NCBI RefSeq assembly: GCF_000002865.3
Contig: NW_001865072.1
Coordinates: 272,655-336,654, forward strand
From: Monosiga brevicollis MX1
Lineage: Eukaryota > Opisthokonta > Choanoflagellata > Craspedida > Salpingoecidae
Length of the DNA: 64,000 nucleotides
Direction of reading: 5' to 3'
Below the pieces are notes generated by a model. It worked only from the letters and a program-made list of their open reading frames with translations. It did no database searches and was not told the DNA's origin. Positions 15,649 through 36,149 of this stretch are shown here, one piece after another. Each line of letters begins with the position of its first letter. The first letter of the stretch is position 1. A program made the position numbers and the translations under genes.

Positions 15649-16656
15649 CTATCTGAGGTCAATCGNNNNNNNNNNNNNNNNNNNNNNNNNNNNNNNNNNN
15701 NNNNNNNNNNNNNNNNNNNNNNNNNNNNNNNNNNNNNNNNNNNNNNNNNNNNNNNNNNNNNNNNNNNNNNNNNNNNNNNNNNNNNNNNNNNNNNNNNNNN
15801 NNNNNNNNNNNNNNNNNNNNNNNNNNTGGGGTCGAAACCAGGGGCGATCCTCGAGCAAAAAGTCGTAAACCTCATCGAGGGTGGCGCGACTGGATCGGGT
15901 AGGATGCAGCATGCGTTCGAGCAGATCGACAAGCTCGTCACTGAGCAGATCCATGGTAGGGCCCGGCAGAGCATGAGTGCGCACATAGCGCATGTAGTCG
16001 ATGTCGTGAATACAGGCCTTGTTCCAAGGGAGATCGGCAAAGAGGACGGCATACCAGGTCAAACCGATGGCCCAAACGTCCTGTGCCACATCAAAGCTGT
16101 CTCGCACCAGCATCTCAGGGGCCATGTAGAACTGAGTTCCTGGGACGCGGATGGTCTGGGGAACGTGTCCAACGGGCTGGATGTTGCCAAAGTCATGCAG
16201 GAGGAGGTCGCCGCTTTCCGTGATCAGGCAATTCTCTGGCTTGATGTCACCGTGAACAAAGCCAGCCTCTGCGACACCACGGGCAGCAGCCACCAGTTGT
16301 CGCATCCAACGGTGGGCAGAGGCAATGGACACGTCTTCTGCGGCAGTGGGTTTGATAAAGTCAAAAAGGGTTCCCTTGGCCAAGGGCAACACCATGGCAG
16401 GCTTGCCGTCGATGCTGCTCGTGTCCAAAAGGGGGCATACGTGTGGAACCTGGCGCATGCGTGCCATGGCACGAATTTCGCTGCCAAAATCATGTTGGCT
16501 CTTGTTGATCACCTTCAGGGCCACATCTTGTTGCAGTTCATGGTCAAAGGCTTTGTACACGACGGCAGTGGCACCGGCGCCCACCTTTTGGTGAATCTCA
16601 AACCGAGATGCCACGGATAGTGTCGCTGGGCCATCCATCATGGCAGTCAGTGCCAT
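15649..16656 (-). CDS. Protein kinase, 3' end lost in a gap
   Basis: The sequence from 16656 down to 15827 encodes about 276 residues without an intron. All main kinase motifs are present: glycine loop VGAGATAVVYKAFD, ATP-binding lysine in VALKVI, helix C glutamate in FGSEI, catalytic loop HGDIKPEN, DFG and APE, and the DVWAIG helix F. The catalytic aspartate and asparagine are intact, but the arginine of HRD is glycine, as in kinases not regulated by activation-loop phosphorylation. The text around KPENCL, the GT-x-FYMAPE stretch and LPWNKA resembles the SBK/SgK group of orphan serine/threonine kinases; that assignment is tentative. Only the N lobe and most of the C lobe are visible; the stop lies in or just past the gap. 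The start is the first of three near-by Met codons. Confidence 0.85.
   Translation of the reverse strand: MALTAMMDGPATLSVASRFEIHQKVGAGATAVVYKAFDHELQQDVALKVINKSQHDFGSEIRAMARMRQVPHVCPLLDTSSIDGKPAMVLPLAKGTLFDFIKPTAAEDVSIASAHRWMRQLVAAARGVAEAGFVHGDIKPENCLITESGDLLLHDFGNIQPVGHVPQTIRVPGTQFYMAPEMLVRDSFDVAQDVWAIGLTWYAVLFADLPWNKACIHDIDYMRYVRTHALPGPTMDLLSDELVDLLERMLHPTRSSRATLDEVYDFLLEDRPWFRPXXXXXXXXXXXXXXXXXXXXXXXXXXXXXXXXXXXXXXXXXXXXXXXXXXXXXXXIDLR
15666..15826. other. Assembly gap
   Basis: A run of 161 N. The true length is unknown. It removes the C-terminal end of the kinase gene. Confidence 1.
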
Positions 16657-20786: not shown

Positions 20787-23330
20787 ATGGCCACGGACAC
20801 TGCTGCGCAGACCGACGCGATGGCTGCTGCTCGTTCTTTTCAGTTGCTCGTGATTGGCGGGGGTTCGGGTGGTCTGGGCTGTGCTCGCCGTGCCGCTGAA
20901 TTTGGCATCAAGGTAGGTTCATCTACACATGGACCTGTGTCATGGATGCCGCGCCTGTCTGCCCTGCCCTCACCAATGCCCACCCTAGGCGGCTGTCGTG
21001 GAGGGCGGCCGAATCGGTGGCACTTGTGTCAACGTGGGCTGTGTTCCCAAAAAAGTCATGTATGTCCACCTCTATTTTTGTATCGCTGGTGGTCGGCCTG
21101 CCTGGCTGCCTTTTGCTCAATCTGGGAGTAAACCTGATGGTTCAATTTTGTATTGTTCTGTCTTGAACCTCTGCTGCGCGTGCAGGTACTACGCGGCAAC
21201 GATGTCCGAGGCCCTGCATGACGCCAAAGACTATGGCTTTGACATCACCCAGCATGCGCCCTTTGACTGGCCCACTCTCAAGAAGAAGCGAGATGCCTAC
21301 ATTGAGCGTCTCAATGGCATCTATGACCGTAACCTGGAGAAAGGCAACATCGAGAAAATTGTCGGCCACGCCAAATTTGTTGACAAGAACACGGTCGACG
21401 TTGATGGAACCCAATACACTGCTGACCACATTGTCATTGCCACTGGTGGCTACCCGACGCTGCCCAACATCCCCGGGGCGGAGCTTGGCATCACTTCTGA
21501 TGGATTTTTTGATCTGGAAACCCTTCCCAAGAAGGCACGTTGGCTGCGCATGTGACAAAACTTGCACCTTCACTAGCCCGTCCAATGGATCACTTATTCT
21601 CTCGTGCTTGCATGTTCAACTTGATTTTTGCGTGTAGGCTCTGGTGGTAGGCGCAGGTTACATCGCCGTTGAGATGGCAGGCATTCTCAACGCACTTGGC
21701 TCGGATGTCACTCTCTCCATCCGCCACGATGAGGTCAGAAAATGCGTGTGACCAGCAACTGCGATCGTTGCATCATCCCTTCTGTTGGCGGCTTCGAATC
21801 ACGCTTGCTCGTTATTGCCGCGTTCCCGTGTTGTAGTTCCTCCGACCCTTTGACGAGCTGGTGCGCAAGCAGCTCATGGAGGAGATGACCGCCGCTGGCG
21901 TCAAAGTTGTGACTAACAGCAGTGTACGTAGCTTTTCTTCTCTTTGCAGGCGCGGGCTTTCTGTGCTAGACTGCTTGTCCACAATGTCCAAGTCTTTCTC
22001 ATTGGCGTGCTGTCTGCATTTTGAATCGCGTACAGGTCAAGGCCCTGAGCAAATCCGGTGAAACCATCAAGGCCGACATGACGATCAAGGATGATGCGGT
22101 AGGTGCTGCACTCCAGTGTGCAGTGTGGTTAGGCTGGACTCAAAACCCTCGTCCGTGCAAGCGTGCTGCCTTGTCTCACAGCCCTCCGCTGGCCTTTTCC
22201 AGACCTCAATTGAGGAGCTTGACTGCGTGCTGTTTGCCATTGGCCGCACACCTCACTCCAAGATCAACCTCGAGGCGGCTGGCGTGCAAGCCGATGCGAA
22301 GGGCTATATCCAAGTGGATGAAGACCAAAACACCTCCCAGCCTGGCATTTACGCCTTGGGTGACGTGTGTGGCAAGTATGAGCTGACGCCTGGTAGGTCG
22401 GCCGTTTTCACAACCTGCCCGCCAAGATACCGTCTGCGCAACACTGGCGCGCTGCCTCTTCTTCATGTGCCATCATCCTGCGCGTAACCTTGCCAATAGT
22501 GGCCATCTCGTGCGGTCGCAAATTGGCACACCGCCTCTTCGAGCCCAATCCCAAGAGCAAGCAAAACTGGGACTACATTCCCACCGTCATTTTCAGGTGA
22601 ATCACCCTTTTTTTCTCGCTCGTCCTAATGAGCAACGATAGAAAGCAAAATAGGCCTACAGTTGCTCACTCTCGGCCACGCACTGCACAGCCACCCGCCC
22701 ATTGGTACTTGCGGCTTCACTGAGGATGAAGCTCGCGAAAAGTTTGGCAGTGACAACATCAAGGTCTACAAGGCTACTTTTACTGCCATGTACCACGGTA
22801 TGGTCAACCTTTGTATTGCTGCCAACAATCACATCAAGTGATACACGGTTCTCTTCATTTCATCACCACGTACGATTTCTGGCCGTGATGCTCGTCGGGG
22901 TGCAATCTAGCCATGACTGAGCGCAAGACTAAGACGGCCATGAAGCTGGTCTGCAAGCTCCCAGAAGAACAGGTGCGCATTAACCTTCCAGCCGATAACC
23001 TATGCCTTGGCGGTCACATCTCACTAGCTTGGGCATTGATAGGTCGTGGGCTTGCATATGATCGGCCTTGGGTGCGATGAGATGCTCCAGGGCTTTGGCG
23101 TGGCCATGAAAATGGGTGCTACCAAGGTACATGGATGCTCGACAGCGCGCTGAAGCATGTGCATCGAGAGCTCGGTGCTTTTTGTGATGGGAAACTCTGG
23201 GTGTTTGTGTCTCTGGCCTGTTGCCTCATCCGGTGCCTCTGCCACGTACCCTTTCCTCGTGTAGGCTCAATTTGATTCTTGTGTCGCCATTCATCCTACG
23301 TCTTCGGAGGAGCTGGTCACCATGCGATGA
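20787..23330 (+). CDS. GSR: Glutathione reductase
   Basis: Twelve exons (20787-20912, 20989-21059, 21186-21534, 21638-21733, 21837-21923, 22036-22098, 22203-22392, 22500-22596, 22691-22797, 22911-22972, 23043-23126, 23265-23330) give 465 residues, the usual cytosolic length. It reduces glutathione disulfide with NADPH. Seen motifs: FAD-binding [19 protein letters not shown]; the redox disulfide in [13 protein letters not shown]; the NADPH-binding [11 protein letters not shown], followed by SIRHDEFLRPFD with the arginine that selects NADPH; the second FAD motif [10 protein letters not shown]; and the C-terminal catalytic His-Glu of [14 protein letters not shown]. No mitochondrial presequence is evident. 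Intron 3 (21535-21637) must begin with GC rather than GT for the frame to stay open, giving AAG/GCACGT; every other intron is GT-AG. Confidence 0.96.
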
Positions 23331-23850
23331 GCACCTAGCGTATCTGGGATTTGAGATTCCTTCTCCCTTTGATCGTCGCTGTTTTATAAGAGTTGAAAGT
23401 CGCACGTGTGTTTTCAAACTTGGGATGTATCGCTGCTAGTGAACAGTTTGATCAATTTTTGACAGCCAAAACAACCCATAGGGGTTTAAAACACTCGCAG
23501 GACAAGGTACTGGTGGACCTTTTGTCTTGAAAAGGCATACATAGTCAGGTAAACACGCGCAAGAAACGACAGCACATCATCGAGACACAAATATCGGAGC
23601 ATCGCACAGCGACTCTTTCGATGTTTACACAACAGAGAAGTTCAAATCGGGCAAAATTACAAAACAAATCCCAAAAAGTAACCAACACAAACGGGATTCT
23701 TGAATGCTGTGGCCTCAACCACAAGCGTTGCTTGGACCAAGGTATGCTGGCCAAAGAGCCTCGGCAATGAACCAAGGTAAAAGCATCGGGGAAGGGAAGG
23801 AGAGCAACGACGGGTAACAAGGGCACCTGGCCAACAGGCTGAGCATATGA
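23331..23850. other. Convergent intergenic region
   Basis: 3' flanks of glutathione reductase (+) and of the giant membrane protein (-). No further signal seen. Confidence 0.6.
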
Positions 23851-26800
23851 TTAGACATCTGTCATCATCATTGAGGCGTCGGGGGCAGCTTCATAAAGGT
23901 CACTTCCAAACGATCCGTGGGAGGCATGTGCAGCAGATGCCGCACGCGTTGCGCCAATTTGGGCGTAGGCATCTGTGCACGGACAAGAAAAAGGAGCGGG
24001 ACAAGAAAAAGGAGCGGCCCAAGCCGCAGAGGTGAGGAAACACAAGTTTGAGGCGCGTGGAAACGAGGACAATCAAACCAAAAACTGATCTTGGGGTGCG
24101 ATTATACCGCCATCAGTCTGCGCGGCGTTTGCTTGACCATAGGTCTGGTGATTACTTTGTAACGTAGCATAGTCTGGACATAGCGGTGGCAAATTCTATG
24201 AGTTGCGGGCCGAGTGGCATGATATCATTTCGCCCCTCTCTTCGCGAGCTCGCACGCTGTACTGCGTTGATTGCAATGACCCAACGAACCCAGTCGAGGC
24301 ATTTCGTAAGCGGAATCAGCCCACGCCGGCGCATTTTTGGTTACAGCAGCATCAGATGTTGGGGCTGCGTATAGGTGGTGCCCCGCTGCAGGGGTGGCTG
24401 CAATACTGTATGCGCTCGGGAGTGCCGAGCGTGCTTCAGTCACGGCGTAGCCATAGGCGTCAAGGCCAGTCTGCGGCACCTGTGACGGCGAAGCATAGCT
24501 ATAGGCAGACAAATCTGGGCCAACAGTATGTTGTGGGTTGAGGCTCATCCCGGGGTGAACCCCATCATTACTCTGCGCCGCCCACTGGTTGACCCTACAC
24601 GCACGTGACAAGCAGTAAGCAAAGGGCCCAGAGCTGCTCAAGAAGCGGCGGATGACAGCAGCTGTCGCTCTGCTGTCGTGATCCTCTGACGCACCTGAGC
24701 ACGCTGAGCTGGTCGTTAGCCTCGGCAATGGCTGCCGGCGTCATGTCATTTTGCAAAAGGTCACGGCCCTGTAGTTCACGACGAAGGAGGGCGTGAGCAA
24801 GAAGCGAGCCTTGGTTCGAAAGCAAGCCAAGCAAGCGATGTACTATACCTTTTTAGGGCCTGGTCGACGGGGTCGGCGTTGGCGCAGCCAAAGCACCAGC
24901 AGCACCGCCAGCAAGAGCACACCTCCAGCTGCGCCAGCCGCAATGGGTACCAGTGAAGATGCATTTGAGGATGAGGATATCGAGTCCGGCGCCAGCGTTG
25001 TGGTCACTGAGTACGTTGGTGAGGTGTTTGGCGCCGCGGGGGTCGTTGTTGTTTCAGAAAGTGTGCTCGCACTGGTTGATGTGGCAGTGGACGTGCCGAC
25101 AGTGGTGGTGATGGTGGGGGGCTCAGCTATGAGCGGCAGGGGTGCATCCACGTCCTGGATACCTATCCAGATTGGTGAGGACGGTTTGACCCAGGGCGGC
25201 TGTTCAAAGCGCCGGGCACAGGACACGCCTAAAAGCAAGTAGGCTCGGGGCCATGGTAGGCCATGAAAGCTGACATTGTACACAAATGTACTCGTTACCA
25301 TGTCACCGTTCACAGCAACAGAGGCTGATACATTGGGAACACGCCGCAGGGTCAAGCGTTGTGGCGCCGACGCACCACAACCAAACGTAGGTGCGCTGGT
25401 CCCTGGTCGCCAGGCAGAGTAGGGATCCAGGGGCTGAAGAAGTATATCACACGCGCTAAACCCAAAGTAGGACAAGGTCAATGCGTCACGTTTCGCCTCG
25501 GAGACGTTGACGGCCTCCGTCGCGTTCAGCTTGAGCGTGATGGTGGACCAAGCAGAAGCATTGACAAAGTAGCCCGCGGTCAGGTCCGGGAAGGATGGGT
25601 CAACAGGTACGCCCAAAGCTGCTAGAGCTTGAGGACTGATCCCATCGTGACGGATCAAGTCCAATTGTACGGGCCGGGCCAAGCCGCCATATAACTCGTG
25701 AATCAGATTGACATTTGTGGCTGCCTCCCCACTTTCGCTGTACAGAAGCAGAGTGGCTTCGTCAAACTTCACGGTACCGAATTGAAGCTCATTGATCCGC
25801 CAAAGGCCGGGTGCCAGGCCATTGGTTAAGGAATCGAGTGGAATCGTCACGGTATGGACGCCTAGATATCCCGCGCACGTGTCATCATCTCCCTGGGCAA
25901 TGCCTGACCAGTCGCAATGAGCACCTGAAGAGCTTCCAAGCCACACCCACGCACACCATTCTGGAAACGACAGATGGCATACGCGAATTTGTGCGCGCAA
26001 AGCCCGTGGTGCAAAGCCCAACACTCGGACGCGCACAGTCTGTCTGTGCAACCCCAAGGGCGTCACATCGACGGACAGAAGTTGGGGCGCATAGTTTCGG
26101 CTCATGACCACCAGTGTCGCGGCGTCGTCTTGAAGCGATTGGTTGTGCCACGTGAGGCCAAAGACCCCAGATGGAGACCAGGATCCATCTGGAGTACGAC
26201 ATTCCAAGCCATGGAAGAACAGTCTAGCGGTTGTTGAGTCTGCAAAAAACCGAAAATTTGACCTTCCACGCAGTTGCAGCCGGGTGCCGTTTTGACGCAG
26301 CACATCCGTATCCAACGCAATCCACGTGATTGACTCAGTCGCAGCTCCAGGTTTCTGAGCCAGGGCGGCACGGCAGTCGGGTCGGCGCGCAAAATCCGAG
26401 GGGGTATCCACCTCAAACAGCACTCGAAGCTGGACAACACCGCCTGATTGTGACTTGGCGGGCATAAAGTGCGCGGACAAGATGCGCGGGGGTAAAAATG
26501 GCAAGGCCCGACCGGCTCGCGTCGGAGAGGCCAGCGGAGGGCACGTTGGGGCCGCCAGCTCTGCCCACAAACCCGCCTCGGTCAGATCATCGGGATGCCA
26601 GCCCGGGGCGTTTTGGGGAACTTCGGGCTGCTGCTTATGTACAAAGCTTGGGACGTTCTCCGGCGGAAGGTCTTGACCATACGTGCGGGTCTCCAGACGC
26701 CATAGCAGACGTCGAACGCGGTGGCTGTGCAGAGGTTGCGGCGATATCACCGAGGCCAGCATCGGGGCAATGGCGCTGGCGTCGAGTACCCAGACGTCCC

Positions 26801-29800
26801 TTGCCGCTGTGACAGGTTTCAGCGCCACGTTGAAATAGCCGGGCACAACCTCGTTTGCACCTTCAGTGTTCCCTTGAATTTCTACGATTGCAACAACGGC
26901 ATCGACGGAGCCACTAAACACGAGCTGCATTGATGCACTCGAGTTGTCAGAGAAGCTGGTGTCCTTGACAAAAACCACGCTCTCAGACGACACGTCCGTG
27001 TGCATCGTGGGAGCGGTTACTGGCACGCTCGCGCGGACAACGCGCTCCCGTCCTCGCATAACGCACTCGAGTAGACCTTCAGTTGGCAGGGCCTCCATTG
27101 CAAGGTGCCAGCCCTCAACGGCACGCGCCCCATTATGCACGGGACGTAGGTCAAGTAGATCAGGCAAGCCCCCCGTAAAGTTGAAAGTGCATCTTCCAAT
27201 GAGCCCATGGTCAAAATCACCCAGGGTGAGTTCGAAATGCCACAGTGGGATATGATTGATGGTGGTGCTGGTAAGGTTCAGCGCTGCCTCGTCCAAACGC
27301 ATGGGGACAAGCGCGGCATTAAGGCTCAGAGTGTTGGTCGCCGCCCATCGACCCCAGCTCGTCATGCAAGCAATTTGACCATATAGGGTATTGGGAATGC
27401 GTGCGTCGGCAACGGCAGTACCCGCATGAGCCAAACTCCACGTGAAATTCCAGCGCGCGTTGCTCAACGCCACCAAAGTCACTGGACGATACTCATCAAA
27501 AGCCATCTCTTCGAACAAAAAGGAACAGCCTTCCAGCTGCTCGCCCTCAGCCAAGTTCAGGGTAAAGGCAACCGTGAATGTCTGCATGCCCGACTTTGAG
27601 ACCTCCTGAATCCATTCAAGCTGAAGGTCTGGGGGCAAGAGCGTGGTGCCGACGAAGGAACCAAGCTGAGCCAGAGCTTGTCGCGTTTGCATGACAGGGT
27701 CAGCATAGGCATTGTAACACTGCGTCAGAAAGAGCCCCGAGGTTGCTGACGCCAACTGCTCCATCCCCATCGGAAAGGGCTGAACCCCTATGCATCCAGT
27801 TCAATGTCAGCACAACAGCTCGAGCACGAAGAGGAGACTGCGTCATAGAGCATGCGCGCAAGCAAGGGAGTACGAGAGCAACGTACCAAGAACGGCGTCG
27901 TGGGACATCAACCTTGGCCAAACAGGCACGAGTGACAAATGAATCTCGCCCTGGGCCAGGCGTGGGCGAGGCAGCGTTGCATAGAGGGCCGACTGCGATT
28001 CGTTGTGTCGAAGGAGGAGTGCCGGCACGTTGATGGTCAGGACGGGCATGCCGTTGGAACTGCTCACGTCCAGTGCTTGGGTACACGCTTGCAAACCCTC
28101 TCCTTCTAGCTCGGTCACAAGTGTCATGGTCTTGGCAGGCGCTAGCAGCTCCATGCCCGCAGCATGCACACGACCCAGATCCTACCAGGAGCAGCGTGAG
28201 TTTGAACAACGGCTAAAAAAGCGCCCAGACACCTTCGAGCGACATCCTTCATGTCACCAAGGTGGACCCACCTCAATCCTTACGAGCGAGTCATTGTGGC
28301 TCACGCTGGCCAAGTCAGCGCGCGTGAAAGAAACGGTGCGTTGCCAACCCTGGCATTCAAGGTGGTCGATCACAAAGTAGGAGCCAACCTGTGGGTTTGT
28401 GAGAGCAAAGCGTCAGTTGGGCTCGAGTCTCAGAACCAAGGACCTGATAACCTTACCCGCATCTTAAAAACGATTGTGACTGGCTGACCCTGAGCGTGCA
28501 CAGGCACTGTCACGCGGCTAGTCTGAGCAGCGCCGCCTTGGAGGACAAAGTAGACCAGAGTACAGGATTGTAAATGGGAACCCGCGTCTTTGAGGGCAAC
28601 CTTCAACACGAGCTGAGACCACGAGGCCAGATTGAGGCTTGTATTGAGCAAAGTGACAGATGGCTGCGTCACAGGGTAGACCGTGCCCAGCTGAACCCAG
28701 TCAGCAAGCGCTGCATTGAAATCAGTAGGCCCATCGATAAACGCAATTTCCGTCAGGTTCCAAGTCAAGCCGGTCTCAAGGAGAAAAGCAGGGAATTGCC
28801 ACGCCAACAAGGTTTGGACGGTGGAATTGAGTACGACAACGCTTGAAAGGCTGGTCCGCCCAGCCGACTGAGACAGGAGGTGAGAGCATCACGTTGATGT
28901 GAGGGAAATGGTAACGCAGGATCAGAGCAGGCCAGAAATAGACAGAGATAAAAGGCAAGGTGGCATAACCGAGTGGCAAATTGTTCTGGCCTAATTGGAA
29001 CTTACATGAGCCAAACTCAGACGGCGCGCGCTCATATTGAAAGCCTGCGCGTGCACAGCAAGACAGACAGTGATCATTAAAAATGAAATTTCCCAGTCAT
29101 CAAGCGCACGGCAAAAAGGCACGCAGGAGGGAACACACGAGGAGCGAGGGCTGGACAAAGTGTCCACCATTTCAGCCCACAAAGGCAGCATGCAGGACAA
29201 GCACGAACCTCAAAAGGGACTATCCCATCCGTGGTCAAGACGGCCATGACGTGCGCGACGCCACAGGCCCAGGAGGTAGCGAAGCCCACTTCAATGTCAC
29301 CGTTGTTCATACTGTCGTAATATATAAAGCTTGGGCGGGGTTCAATGAGTGCTGTGATAGCAGACATGTTTTCAAAGGTCGCAGACGTTTCAAGGGTAAG
29401 ATTGCTTCCAACAGCACTGAGGTTGCAGCGGGAGATGGTCCAAGTCACTCGAGGAATCTGCTTTGAACAGGTGCGCAGGCTCAGTACCAGCCAGTTGGAA
29501 AGGCCATCAGCAAGTGAAAAATCAAGGTTCGTACTGGTGCGGCCGTTCGCCGCGGCGAGGGCCACACAAAGACCGGAAGCCGCGATGTTGGTGCGGAGTC
29601 GGGAGCGGATGTCTGTCGCTTGACCGTGTGCATCGAGTAACAGCTCCGACTCGACACGGGCTTGCAAACTTGGCTGTGTGACTTGAATAAAATTACCAGT
29701 AAGTGGCAAGGTCACGCGTTGGTTGCGCAAGTCAATGCAAATCACTTGGGACAGGTTGTAGCTTCCTTGGTCGGCGCCAGGGTAGAGATACAGCTGACCA

Positions 29801-32800
29801 TGCAAGCTGCCGACCCGTGTTGGCAACAGCAAAACTTCATATTCTGCAAAAGAAGAGACAAAAGTGGCATTGCAGTAGGAGAAAAAGCTGTCAAAGTTTG
29901 AGTAGGTCACGGTGATGGAAATGGGTTCTTCCTTGTTAGTCACGGCAATTGCGGCCGGATTCAGCACCACATCGGCAATGACGTCGTTCTCTTGAGCGTC
30001 AGATTCAGGACAAGTGGTGTTTATGGGAAAGGCTGTGGCTCCGTCTTGCACAAGTCGCCAGGCGGGGAAGATGCTCATAACGCCTATTGAATACTCTCTG
30101 ATTACAATCTCCTTGAGCATCAAGAGAGAGTGGCTTTTCACTCTGCGCGGGCACGGGCGTCTCGCGTCAGCAACAAGGCAATCCAAAGGCATTTGAAGGG
30201 GTTGGATGACAAGGACCAAACGTACAAGGGAAAGGTGAGGTTCAAACGCTCAGGTGTGGGGATGGCCCCGGACATGTTGTGTGAAAGCGTGATGTTCAAG
30301 TCTAACTGCGCTAGAGGAGCCAATACAATATCCAAGTCCCACGCTCCGGCTAAAAGTGGGGAAGGCCCAGAGGCCAAAGGAAAAAAAAGAAAGGGGCATG
30401 AGAGAATTCAGAAAAATGCGCAAAGTAGCACAAGGTATCATTCTTGACTGCATGCAAGACTGTGCTGCTGTATTTGCTTACTCAAGGGCGTCCAAATTTC
30501 TATTTCCAGTAAAAGCTGGCCGTCTTCACACTCCACTCCATTGTCCCACAGACGAAGGTCGGAGACGTGAGCGAGGGGCCGTATTGATGGAAGGAATGGC
30601 TTGAAATAAAACCAAGAATCGGCGTTGGGATGGGGTTCAGCGAAAATATTGTGTGTTACAGAGTAAGTGCTGGTCAGCTGGAACTTGAACCAGGCTGGCG
30701 CGTAGTAATTTGCACTCAACCCGAGCAAGTCCGCGCCCATTCGAAGAGTGCAACGCGTCTGGTTGGTTCCCGAGATTGGCTATTGGCAAAAAGGTGGACC
30801 ATCGCATTGAAGCCATGGATGTGGGTCAAGGGTTGGCGTGCAAGCTCAATCTTCCGGACCATCAACGCGGACGACGGTCAAAACCGAGGAGATATCAGGG
30901 CAACAAGTGATGCGCCCGCATCATCATTATCAACAATATCGTTGTTTCCTAAACACATACTTGAATTTTGAGAGGAAAAGCCCGCAATTCGTTGTTGTCC
31001 ATGTGTTCGGCCAGAAAGGTTGGAAATTGTTCAGCTGCAAGCAGGGCAAGAGTGGCTGCCTGAAGCGCAACTGCAGATTCTATCACCACCTTGATCCCCC
31101 AAGGCGATTGACCGATAACATATCATGTAAGCCAAAGTGATCATGCATTAGTTTTGAAAGTGCATGTAGATACAATGACTGAAGTAAGACGCACCTCAAG
31201 ATCATAGCTATCCGCGCGCTCATCCTCATGTCGCACGGGTACCGTTGTGTAACTGGCAGAGGGGACGAGAAGCAAAGGGAGAGGCGTTTCCATCAACAAG
31301 AAACACACCAGACAAGAGGTTTGAGCATGTCAACCGAACAACAAACAAGAAAATAAGCAGTCTTTGTGCAGAACGCAATCTGCACGTGCCAGACACATAC
31401 TTGACAATGCGGTAGCTGGCGCTATAAAAGGCAGGCGGCAACAAAGTTTTGTTTCCTTCGATAAAAATCTGAGCCAACAATGAAAGCTTGAGCTGATTCG
31501 AAATCTCACGAATGGTCCAGATTCGGGTTGTCAGGATGCAAGCCTACCGTGTTGCCGGCAAAGTTTGTGCATGCGACATCATTCAAAAGCCACGGCCTGT
31601 TGCTAAGTACTGGGATGTGCACAGAAGCTATGCCTTCAAATCGGTTGGACCAAAGAACCATCGAATATTTTTGTGTCTGCCCAGATGTTAGGGAAACCGT
31701 GGCGGTACAACTTGCCATGCCGCTGTGATTATCCTGGTATGAAACCATGACTTCAAGTGGCAGCGACCAGGATGACGTGTTCAGGCTTGGCTGGACCCAC
31801 TCCAAGATGGGCGTGCTGTGCGTCACATCAGAGCTGTAGCTGAGGTCAAAGGCGGCAGCCGTTGCACCGTGCAGCTCATGTGTGGTGTTAGCAAAATCTC
31901 GACATTGCTGAACTACAACGCGAAGCCGACCGTTGGCACGCCGGAAACCTGGTACACGCAGGGCGTGCCAGACATGCAAGCGCCTTGCAAACTTTGCATC
32001 GGGCCAAAGGTGTGCCGTCGACATGTTGAGCGTGACCATGGCCTCATCCACGGTCTGCATTCCATCGACTGATGTGATTTGCCAGTGCAAGGTGCAGTCC
32101 ACCAGCTTGGTGTCCCCAATGTTGAGGACTAGCGTGATGGGGCGAGTGACAAAGGGCTTGCGCCCTAAGAAAAGGGGGCTGGGATCGACCAGAATTTCAA
32201 GCAACTCAATGTTGCCAGTCGAGGGGCCCTTGGTTGACATCACAGTATTTGTGATGCGGAATGGTTCTGCAAGAAGATAGAGGAAGCACACGTAGATGCG
32301 AGTAAGATACGATGTTGAGGAGGCGGAAACGCCAACAGCGCCTTCTTGTGTGGGCCATGCTTACCGGCGCTGCTTTTGGCTTGATCTGCGCACCTGACTG
32401 TGTACTCCTATCAAACGCATTGAGGAGGGCATGAGGTCAAGAAGCGAGTTGAGAGCTGAAATGACAAAGTGGGTCAGCAAAAAGTCAAAGCAAAGTGGGT
32501 TAAAAAAAGCTTCAGGTCAAGGAAGTAACATGCTGGCCACGCACAAGCCTCAAGTGACGGCGCTAAGCCCAACTTGGGACTCTTGGGGAGCACAAAGAAC
32601 CGACCTACCTCTGGGAAGCAAGCGTCGAGGTCATAGGGATCATACCAACGACCAAGAAGAACTTGATAGACAAAGGCGTCACCATGAGGTGTGGCCGTGT
32701 GCGATGCAGTGATGGGCAGCAATGTTCCGAGCCCACAGCGGGGGCTGGCCACGGTGCAGTTCATGTGCAAATGTTGGTCATCGTAGACGGCAACGGTCAG

Positions 32801-33331
32801 GTAGAGCACCTGGGTTGTGGAAAGGTCTAGGAACGCAGGACTGGCAACGGCGCTGGTAATCAAAGGGTGGTATTGGTCCTCTTCAGACGCAGCATCGTTG
32901 GTCACATTCCCTTGGTGCACACGACAACCCACGTCGGGCGAGCACGTGACCTTCACACCGATTCGGCCCAGGGGCAAGAGCGGCGGGTAGCCGATTGACC
33001 ACATCATGGCGTCTAAATGACCTCGAAATGATAGTGAGGTTGCCGCAGTCCAGCTCGTGCGCGGAATCAGAGTGATGCTGGCGTTTGACTGGGTTGACAC
33101 AACTACTTGGCGCTCAGGCCGGGGTGGCAAGAGGAGCTCGATGTTGCAGAAGCTGTCCACATTATCCCGGTCATTGGTTGTAGAGATGGCCACGACGCCC
33201 GAGCTCAAACTACTAGAGTTGGGCAGCGAGGGTGGAGCAACCGAGGCATCACACCCTTGCCCTCGGACGCCGTGCAGACCAAGGGCAAGCACGACAAAGC
33301 AGGCAAGGAGCACCCGCGCCATGTGGGCCAT
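23851..33331 (-). CDS. Giant single-pass membrane protein with repeated two-cysteine ectodomain and phosphotyrosine-type tail
   Basis: I could join 18 exons in phase: 33331-32609, 32407-32365, 32266-31548, 31504-31401, 31252-31195, 31089-30961, 30779-30482, 30349-30222, 30111-29209, 29044-29006, 28867-28457, 28388-28272, 28181-27887, 27787-24849, 24768-24695, 24594-24290, 24173-24108 and 23972-23851, giving 2490 residues. A signal peptide opens it (ARVLLACFVVLALGL then HGVRGQ). The ectodomain of about 2270 residues has many N-glycosylation sites and at least eight degenerate units: a hydrophobic strand leading to a first cysteine (KLVDCTLHW, GMASCTATV, LQSCTLVYF, LEGCSFLF), then 50-70 residues later a second strand ending in cysteine (YTVRCADQ, NDVACTNFAGN, LSQVICIDLRNQ, YGQIACMTSWG). 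A Ser/Thr-rich stalk, one transmembrane helix (VLLLAVLLVLWL, residues about 2271-2290) and a basic stop-transfer follow. The 200-residue tail carries SAYSYAS, SAYEMPRL, DYATLQ, DAYAQIG and DLYEAAPD, tyrosine sites suited to SH2 or PTB partners. No known family recognised. Confidence 0.75.
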
Positions 33332-33500
33332 CCCTCGGCCAAGGAGTACAACCACAAGTCTGCGCCTCAAAAACACCAACCCATGACGGGCGTGGCGCGC
33401 GCATGCAACCCTGCTACCCACAGATGCCCATACACGACCGTGCACACAGATCAACAAGGCGCGGCGCAGGAAGAAACGGCTCGCACGAGGAAATGGGAGA

Positions 33501-33597
<97 letters not shown>

Positions 33598-33988
33598 AAA
33601 GAGCAAAGACACAAAGGAAAAGTACAACGCACACCAGAGTCCTCCTATGATGCTGACAGATGATGCTGACAATGAAGAGAGAGGAGAGAGTGTGTGTGTG
33701 TGAACAGGAAAACATCATGTGGTGGTGACATGAAAAAAAAAAGGGTGTGAGGCGAGATGTTAGGGGCTTGCAAACACGAAAAGGAGGAGCAGTTGCATGA
33801 TCAAGATTATTTTTTTTGGGAGAGGGTATTCAATTATCGTTCAGGGGCGCACGACCAAAACGACAATGATCACCCGACACCAAAGCCATCGAGTTGGGGA
33901 AACACGAAAGGCAGTATTAGGCAGGCAAGCAAAAGACATGGATTGAATGGTCACCTCTGAGTTGCGGCGGGAGTGTGAGTGTCACCTC
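33332..33988. other. Upstream region of the giant membrane protein gene
   Basis: Contains a long GA tract (CT on the coding strand) and nothing else recognisable; the 3' end of the aldo-keto reductase transcript also falls here. Confidence 0.6.
33509..33594. repeat. (GA)n microsatellite in 5' flank
   Basis: About 43 GA units on the plus strand, that is CT on the coding strand, starting some 180 bases upstream of the ATG of the giant membrane protein. Confidence 0.97.
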
Positions 33989-34962
33989 TTAGTTGCGGCT
34001 GGAGTGTGAGGTATTCATGGGCGCGTCCGGCACGACGTGATCATGAGGCAAATCATCCTTGAAGGGGTAATCCGGGTGCATGGCCGTCGCATCCCACAAC
34101 AGGTGGCGCCAGCCCATGTTCATGTCCGAAAGCACCTGGAAGACGAGACGTCCAGTGTTCAACATCAAAAGACAAAGCGTGAAAATGCGTGGCAACACAC
34201 CAACGATGCTTCCGCAAAGTACGCAAAGCAAAAACAACCACAACCAAAAGCGGGATAGCAGGCACGTACTGCCATGTCTTCAGGGGTGAGCTCAAAGTCA
34301 AAGACCTGGAAGTTGGACTCAATGCGGGCCGGGGTCACCGACTTGGGGCAGGCGGCCGTGCCACGCTGAATGTGCCAGCGCAGCACAACTTGAGCCGTGG
34401 TCTTGTTGCCATGACGGGCACCAATTTCCTTCAGGCGAGGATCCTGAACAAGCGAACCGACCAAAGGTCAAACAAAGGCAGACGGCGGGAAAGAAGAGGG
34501 AGAACAAGACAACTGCGAGCAGGTCAACCAAGGCACTACCGACCTCAAGCAATTCGGGTTCGCCGGGCTGCGCCCAGGGGCGATCATAGGAGCCCAGGGG
34601 CGAGTAGGACTACGTTGCAAAGCGGAATGTCATCACGCATCAGAGTTGAAAAGCGCCACAAGTCGGGTGAGGAGGACAGCACAAAAGTGGGCTGTGCAAG
34701 GCGGACACATACTTGGAATTGAACGCCCGTACGCTGGCAAAAATCAATCAGATCCTTGTTTTGAAGGTATGGGTGACATTCATTTTGAAGGATGGTGGGC
34801 TGGTACTTTCGGGCAGCCGCCTGCACCTCGGCCACTTGACGGCGATTGAAGTTTGACAAGCCAATGGTGCTATTCATGGTCAGGCATTGCGTCAGTAGTG
34901 TCAGTAGTGAACACAAGTCAGGTAGCTCGGAACGCACACCGTGCAAAAAAGGAGGTATTTGG

Positions 34963-34994
<32 letters not shown>

Positions 34995-36149
34995 AAAAAA
35001 AGGGGAGGGGTGGAGACCATGTTGGCGCGCCCTACCGCACGAGGCCGGCATCCACGAGCTCTTCCATGGCGTGCCAGGTGTCCACGTAGTGCGACTCGTT
35101 GTCACTGCTGTATTTGCCGTCGGCCTCGATGGGAAACATGGTGCCTATAATCATGGCAACGGGTGGTTGTCGGTTGTCAAACAAGTTAGCATGACGTTTG
35201 CCTCGCTGTAATAGCCCGAGGGTGCATCTGGCAGCAGTGCTGGCGTTTGGCGGCTTTGAAAACGGATGCATCTACCTTGTTCCTTGGGAGCAGGCTCGTT
35301 GGTACCGTCAATCACGCGAAGGGTGTTGTCGGCGGGACAAGCCTGTTTTGGCCGCCCGGGATGAGAGCTCCCCAAGCCCTGACATGGGTTCATGAGGTAT
35401 GCGCGTATCACACACCTGAGGCCAGTGGATGACAAAGGAGTCGACATAATCGGTCTGGAGGTCACGAAGAGTGGCCTCGAGATCGGCTCGCACATGTTCA
35501 GGGCGATGGTTTGAGTTCCACAACTTGCTCTACCAAAAAGCACAAGCCGCGTGATGACACAATCAACACAAAAATTTGCGGCGGCTTGGCGTTTCCACGA
35601 AGAAGCAGAAAGACCTTGACACACCTGGATGAAAATGTCCGAGCGCTTGAGATCACCCTTGGCAAAGACGTCCTGCAGAGCTTCGCCAATCTCCGCCTCC
35701 TAAAGCAAGCCCACCCGGGGCGAAATGAGACGATGTCATCAAGAAGCGCCATGAACAACGAGTAAGAAGGATGAGGCATTATCAATATGTTTGATATGCA
35801 TAAGACAGACGTTGGCATAGTCGTTGGCAGTGTCCAAGCAACGGTAGCCGCTCTCGAGGGCCACCTGTGCGCAAGGAACAGTCGACATGCGTTCAGTGAG
35901 CCGAGGCAGACCAAGGCAGATGGCGGGCAGCGAAACGAGGGGTGAACCAACCTTGACAGCTGCACCCGTCTTGCCAAGCGGGGATTTCCAGGTCCCTTGA
36001 AGATCAGACCCAGGTCAGAGAGAGTGGGATGAGCAAAGCGCAGCGAAGGACTTGGTGCCCACGTTTGACCAAAAAGTGTCTTTGCAACGCATCCAGCAAC
36101 AGGGGGCAACTCAACACCACATGGTCCTACCAAGGCCGATCACAGGCAT
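33989..36149 (-). CDS. Aldo-keto reductase (AKR superfamily)
   Basis: Eleven exons (36149-36131, 35995-35952, 35864-35811, 35699-35625, 35529-35416, 35342-35276, 35144-35036, 34869-34713, 34609-34544, 34443-34270, 34135-33989) give about 341 residues forming an NADPH-dependent (alpha/beta)8 barrel. The family signatures are all visible: MPVIGLGTWKS; the catalytic tetrad Asp and Tyr in [10 protein letters not shown], Lys in IQSKLW and His in FVIHWPQ; the third signature [19 protein letters not shown] with the cofactor-binding Lys and Arg; and [10 protein letters not shown]. An insertion of about 40 residues ([16 protein letters not shown] to YSSDNESHY) lies between strand 4 and helix 4, longer than in most animal AKR1 enzymes. 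The substrate cannot be told. The start given is the first Met of the signature; the frame is open upstream (TTLSDGVE), so a short first exon is probably missing. Confidence 0.88.
34963..34992. repeat. Poly(A) run in an intron
   Basis: Thirty consecutive A within intron 7 of the aldo-keto reductase gene (T run on its coding strand, close to the acceptor at 34869). Confidence 0.9.

Follow-up and report, generated by a model that had tools for sequence, protein, structure and literature searches.

What does a long minus-strand gene of the choanoflagellate Monosiga brevicollis MX1 encode, and is the two-cysteine pattern along the outer part of its product a true repeat? The gene lies in a stretch of 64,000 nucleotides (the window) on contig NW_001865072.1, positions 272,655 to 336,654, and an earlier note on this DNA had read it as a membrane protein with an ectodomain of repeated two-cysteine units. 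The predicted model is a single gene running from window position 33331 to 23851, with 18 exons in one continuous phase and 2480 residues. The overall order is a signal peptide, a large ectodomain, a serine/threonine-rich (S/T-rich) stalk, one membrane helix and a tail. We propose, with a probability of about 0.6, that the protein is a kinase-less, single-pass surface receptor from a small immunoglobulin-like (Ig-like) family of M. brevicollis, and that its tail is a tyrosine docking platform. Here, the receptor function would follow from the anatomy of the predicted protein.

The repeat was recognized through other genes of the organism. In each unit, the first cysteine directly follows the second hydrophobic strand and the other lies close to the unit end; candidate units are lettered a to o along the ectodomain (see the table). 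Searches were made of the organism's own genome, 39.5 Mb in 57 contigs, in which the window is C23:272655-336654. One exon of this genome agrees with the UNC18 chain of Protein Data Bank entry 2xhe at 47 of 50 aligned residues, the mismatches being the first residue and the final two; another exon, of the Sec1 family, was closest to Vps45. A review (PMC4224468) reports an Unc18-syntaxin crystal structure from M. brevicollis, which is probably entry 2xhe. Exon 14 returned itself and nine weak matches to the stalk and helix, one of which, on contig C50, is the first related locus. The C50 frame reached in this way, through stalk and helix, has clearer copies of the unit, ending for example in LACSDEIGN. 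A second locus, on contig C45, combines a signal peptide and multiple units with a stalk, a helix and a downstream tyrosine-rich frame; provided that the two C50 frames belong to a single gene, the C50 locus has these parts as well. A consensus written by hand, and composed after some units had already been seen, ranked window unit d first in the genome (E 9.4e-6), followed by two C50 units, window unit f and the C45 gene.

Profiles built exclusively from the C45 and C50 genes were then compared with the window protein. The score of a first profile of 10 units was reached by 30 and 67 of 1000 shuffles (53 and 92 for the best domain), and six of the seven stretches that it listed coincide with proposed units. 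A 12-unit profile, to which two C45 units had been added, finds the window protein with E values, for a one-sequence search space, of 3.2e-7, 1.7e-7 and 1.3e-6 in three alignment settings. Its full score was reached by none of 2000 shuffles in each setting, and the reversed window protein scored far lower; under one of the settings, a single local shuffle in 1000 reached its best domain. In addition, hhalign comparison of eight window units (including j, k and m of exon 14) with 10 of the 12 units of the other genes gave a probability of 92.4 and an E of 5.1e-7. A scripted rerun gave E 7.6e-6 for the eight units and 8.2e-6 for units b, c, d, f and h alone; none of 150 column shuffles reached either value, and reversed alignments had no match. 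Consistent with this, when ectodomain positions are scored with a second-cysteine motif trained on the C45 and C50 genes, Cys849, Cys488 and Cys377 rank in the top 0.3%, and the first-cysteine context of Cys1140 is in the top 0.8%. The expected placement, with the first cysteine after the second strand and the second before an end resembling D-x-x-G-N, holds for Cys1140 (first) and for Cys377, 488 and 849 (second), and not for most of the others.

These profile comparisons show that the putative units b, c, d, f and h, taken jointly, have homologs among the units of two further large genes in the genome. Consequently, the window gene looks like one member of a small receptor family and not a lone oddity, as two other genes hold the repeat. 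A C50 unit and window exon 3, each searched alone against the genome, returned self-matches only. A consensus computed from the other genes returned units of the C50 and C45 loci plus three weak matches at other places, and the window gene was not listed. No relative of one C45 unit was found among viral contigs. When sequences in the Protein Data Bank were searched with the profile of 10 of the 12 units, two rows for the Rubisco small subunit (E 0.14 and 1.6) were judged to be chance.

How much of the ectodomain does the unit account for? The signal is clear between residues 153 and 1196, approximately, as units b, c, d, f and h, and it is weak at residues 25–150, at residues 1215–1313 and in exon 14. 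With a hidden Markov model (HMM) profile that includes window units, residues 500–760 and 861–1100 give no unit signal. A self-comparison of the protein was made with 130-residue tiles. Units d and h aligned with a score of 83 (69 in an overlapping tile) against a shuffle maximum of 67, but the other alignments were near null, and the scores overall were slightly above those of shuffles. Self-similarity alone is therefore not sufficient to accept the repeat pattern. The observation of a repeat was real in part: five units, as a set, match those of other genes, but coverage of the whole ectodomain does not follow.

One unit building the entire ectodomain is not established because exon 14 is weak and the two internal stretches are silent. 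The protein could instead be a composite, in which Ig-like units occupy the N-terminal half, one or more other beta-rich domains occupy exon 14, and the likeness of strand plus cysteine in that exon is due to chance. Units j, k, m and n of exon 14 have an hhalign E of 0.097 over 29 columns, and yet this weak signal exceeds all 150 column shuffles. Using the profile that includes window units, the exon 14 score is reached by only 13–22 of 1000 local shuffles and that of exons 13 and 14 jointly by 0–8 of 1000. We place the composite protein somewhat below even odds.

The fold was modeled from alignments of the units; two alignments with a misplaced cysteine column were set aside, and two others were used. 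The AlphaFold2 model of unit d is an Ig-like sandwich, with fold matches to Ig, Fn3 and other sandwiches. In the models of units d and k, the third and sixth strands hold the two cysteines. Taken as strands C and F in unit d, this placement suggests that the predicted disulfide joins C to F, rather than B to F as in classical Ig domains. The Ig-like beta-sandwich anticipated from the spacing of the cysteines is partly supported, for the N-terminal half; for unit k of exon 14 the model showed no clear Ig match.

Does the unit belong to a described family? Pfam and NCBIfam were searched with the five largest of the 18 exons (1, 3, 9, 11 and 14), and no family was above its cut-off. These scans took pieces of the window, not the whole spliced ectodomain; units b and h were partly covered and unit i lay outside. 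Within the same five exons Pfam listed no Ig family, no Big_3_2, no DUF7743, no DUF7035 and, at E values up to 10, no HYR (hyalin repeat). Rows for PYCO1_repeat, TRAPPC13_N and Mucin in window exons were below threshold and are ascribed to chance or composition. The other genes come nearer to known families. Consensus sequences computed from their units list DUF7743 (PF24893) in three of three cases and DUF7035 (PF23034) in one of three, with no other Pfam family, and the C45 frame whose unit is clearest has Pfam listings for these two only. None of these matches reaches the gathering score of 27 bits, the highest having 18.5, and both families are absent from the listings for the second C45 frame and the two C50 frames. 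The hand-written consensus is over the cut-off for DUF7743, DUF7035, DUF7034 and Big_3_2. Searching the genome with the DUF7035 and DUF7743 models gave no match, and control genomes were equally silent.

Judged by sequence, the two-cysteine unit is thus close to the existing families DUF7743 and DUF7035, which we take to be domains of dictyostelid surface proteins, but it is under their cut-offs. The proposal that the unit has no recognized family survives in that no scanned piece exceeded any Pfam cut-off, but it must be tempered by these two neighbors. Similarly, the resemblance noted earlier to bacterial Ig-like modules (Big_3_2 and similar) extends to the C-x-D-x-x-GN end and the order of strands, but no scanned window piece matches them. 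The Monosiga units have typically paired cysteines, which to our knowledge are not typical of the bacterial family. A literature search on DUF7035 found nothing, and the titles and abstract openings of papers on Ig domains in choanoflagellates or M. brevicollis, and on extracellular Ig-like repeats, held no description of a two-cysteine receptor family.

The rest of the protein is that of a surface molecule. As the earlier note proposed, it is a membrane protein: hydropathy predicts one helix, at about residues 2258–2281. The part up to this helix contains 39 N-glycosylation sequons and 40 cysteines, one of them within the signal peptide. The tail comprises 200 residues and ends in -MTDV; its 11 tyrosines fall in three of its four exons. 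This end is predicted to be a class I PDZ ligand, the motif being defined as X-S/T-X-hydrophobic in a passage of PMC8512817. The tail has zero Pfam matches at E values up to 1, and hence no kinase domain was found in it. Tyrosine-rich frames also lie downstream of the C45 gene (12 tyrosines in 190 residues) and at the C50 locus (11 in 165).

The same anatomy could belong to a passive adhesin or surface coat, in which repeats and stalk would function in attachment or in capturing prey, the tail is anchored through PDZ and cytoskeletal proteins, and the tyrosines have no signaling role. The long ectodomain with its many sequons, the S/T-rich stalk, the -MTDV end and the absence of a Pfam domain from the tail would all suit such a protein. 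The spread of the tyrosines over three tail exons, and the tyrosine-rich frames adjoining two other genes of the family, argue against it. We consider a passive adhesin rather unlikely.

The model that joins ectodomain and tail was read from the DNA alone, with splice sites picked by hand to preserve the frame. In-phase reading alone is therefore no independent evidence. Exons 1–14, joined at GT-AG sites in phase, give 2291 residues to a stop at 24849, which sits inside a GTATAG splice donor shortly after the membrane helix. Beyond this donor, four more exons (15–18, 24768-23851) hold the frame to a stop at 23851 and carry most of the tail. The span previously assigned to the gene, 33331-24849, thus holds exons 1–14 only; the count of 18 phased exons is the same in both readings, with 2480 residues now instead of 2490. 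All introns are GT-AG and 55–201 bases long. By codon usage, the chosen frame ranks best of six in 15 of the 18 exons, the misses being exons 2, 10 and 12 (43, 39 and 117 bases). The least certain stretch is around residues 496–590. At about 31548-31500, exon 3 may have a later end that reads on through GNTVGLHPDN, which is like the unit end GNTVVSHPDYTL of the C50 gene, and an exon 3 ending there would make exon 4 doubtful. That the model joins two or more genes, or that the tail is part of a neighboring gene, is very improbable: hand-picked splice sites and an intron 14 (24848-24769) that begins, if unspliced, with an in-frame stop would allow it, but the frame is maintained through 18 exons with the codon usage just given, and the C45 and C50 loci keep signal peptide, units, stalk, helix and tyrosine-rich frame in identical order.

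Several results weigh against a receptor of a repeat-bearing family. Tested singly by hhalign, only unit f is clearly significant, and the remaining units are weak or insignificant. Over all 39 cysteines the motif means are unremarkable, as 1909 and 1767 of 5000 random sets score at least as high, and six are in the motif top 5% against 3.7 expected; the one score that stands out is the best of the two motif scores, which 153 of 5000 random sets reach. The fold model of unit d was built on eight sequences from one gene, and its best Foldseek E is 0.043. In exon 14, which forms the C-terminal ectodomain, a two-cysteine unit is tentatively suggested, and the model of unit k, with a predicted local distance difference test score (pLDDT) of 61.2, has no clear Ig match. 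Our reading of the C45 and C50 genes is based on open frames and not on spliced models, and we infer that two C50 frames (L037 and L024) are one gene. Finally, the tail is only modestly enriched in tyrosine (11 of 200 residues against 48 of 2232 in the ectodomain; binomial 0.004). The tail is weakly similar to the C50 frame, with a score equaled by 4 of 500 shuffles, and not significantly similar to the C45 frame (131 of 500).

Table. Predicted features of the window gene, from the start codon to the C-terminus (window positions)
Feature	Position	Strand	Evidence
Start codon and signal peptide, residues 1-24, exon 1	33260..33331	-	Hydropathy, translation; cleavage site inferred
Possible unit a, residues 43-142	32906..33205	-	Weak: full score of residues 25-150 reached by 18-38 of 1000 local shuffles
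Unit b, residues 157-254, interrupted by intron 1	32369..32863	-	Other-gene profile lists residues 152-196 in 3 of 3 settings; hhalign alone E 0.018
Unit c, residues 276-383, Cys313 and Cys377	31884..32207	-	Cys377 in top 0.3% for second-cysteine motif; in profile of N-terminal units; alone E 0.41, not significant
Unit d, residues 408-495, Cys442 and Cys488	31548..31811	-	AlphaFold2 model, fold matches, profile match, motif; hhalign alone E 0.1
Unit f, residues 770-855, Cys804 and Cys849	29719..29976	-	HMM domain E 1.2e-6, 8.9e-6, 0.0018 (three settings); hhalign alone E 2.7e-4
Unit h, residues 1107-1194, interrupted by intron 11, Cys1140 and Cys1187	28332..28663	-	First-cysteine context in top 0.8%; best self-match (unit d); hhalign alone E 0.07
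Possible unit i, residues 1218-1304, no second cysteine	27912..28172	-	Weak profile signal; hhalign alone E 0.14
Exon 14 ectodomain, candidate units j, k, m, n, o; LEGCSFL and IACMTSW strands	25191..27626	-	Profile comparisons, unit k model
S/T-rich stalk	24960..25127	-	Sequence
Single membrane helix, about residues 2258-2281	24882..24953	-	Top 19-residue hydropathy windows begin at 2256-2263
Exon 15, tail start	24695..24768	-	Gene model; best codon-usage frame of six
Exon 16, tyrosine-rich tail (AYSYASP, AYGYAV, AYSIAA, HLYAAP, AYEMP)	24290..24594	-	Gene model, codon usage
Exon 17, tyrosine-rich tail (DYATL, TYGQA)	24108..24173	-	Gene model, codon usage
Exon 18, tyrosine-rich tail (AYAQI, LYEAAP), -MTDV and stop	23851..23972	-	Gene model, codon usage

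Other loci were noticed during this work. On the minus strand at G000:C41:149600-154500, locus L025 has a membrane protein frame with Ig-like repeats, as judged by eye, and a tyrosine-rich tail (YADVDASTYDTLP); by eye, its C-terminus appears to be an SH2 domain. Two near-identical long open frames, L038 (G000:C43) and L039 (G000:C50 near 1294592), have by eye an Ig/Fn3-like two-cysteine unit and are probably a recent duplication; the Pfam scan of this pair covered L038. In the window itself, a long run of AG dinucleotides lies at about 33510-33594, some 180 bases 5' of the start codon, and a stretch within 15649-16617, in a region with a kinase-like minus-strand frame, is read as N. An Rfam scan of window positions 23000-35000 found nothing above the gathering score.

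Two receptor systems invite comparison. Animal Ig-superfamily receptors with tyrosine tails combine an Ig-like ectodomain, one helix and a kinase-less tyrosine tail, and the layout predicted for the Monosiga protein is alike. Compared by layout and from published descriptions, the predicted protein is also like the Tgr receptors of Dictyostelium (TgrB1/TgrC1), being single-pass with Ig-like ectodomain repeats. According to passages of PMC12324515 and PMC11088635, the Tgr receptors span the membrane, carry Ig-like TIG/IPT repeats, bind from one cell to another and use the tail for signaling. They differ in being known for allorecognition, and the descriptions in those passages make no mention of a tyrosine-rich tail.

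If the protein is a receptor, its ectodomain would bind a partner located on another cell, on prey or on the substrate. Clustering would expose the 11-tyrosine tail to phosphorylation by separate tyrosine kinases of the organism, SH2 or PTB proteins would dock on the resulting phosphotyrosines, and the -MTDV end may anchor a PDZ scaffold. M. brevicollis is described in passages of PMC3082566 as rich in tyrosine kinases, phosphatases and phosphotyrosine-binding domains, and in PMC8512817 as having over 150 PDZ domains. A bolder view is that a kinase-less choanoflagellate family, whose C–F-linked Ig-like units are relatives of dictyostelid recognition-receptor ectodomains and whose tails dock proteins through phosphotyrosine, represents a pre-animal cell-recognition system having the layout of the animal Ig superfamily and a separate domain origin; we regard this as a long shot.

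Proteins with this unit are easily left as hypothetical because no Pfam model exceeds its cut-off in the scanned pieces. Because of the tail, which lies past the span first assigned to the gene, the interest of the protein lies more in its possible role as a receptor than in the oddity of its domains. If the receptor reading is true, the phosphotyrosine toolkit of choanoflagellates may receive input from such kinase-less, Ig-like, tyrosine-tailed receptors, and these would test whether the layout of animal Ig receptors evolved more than once.
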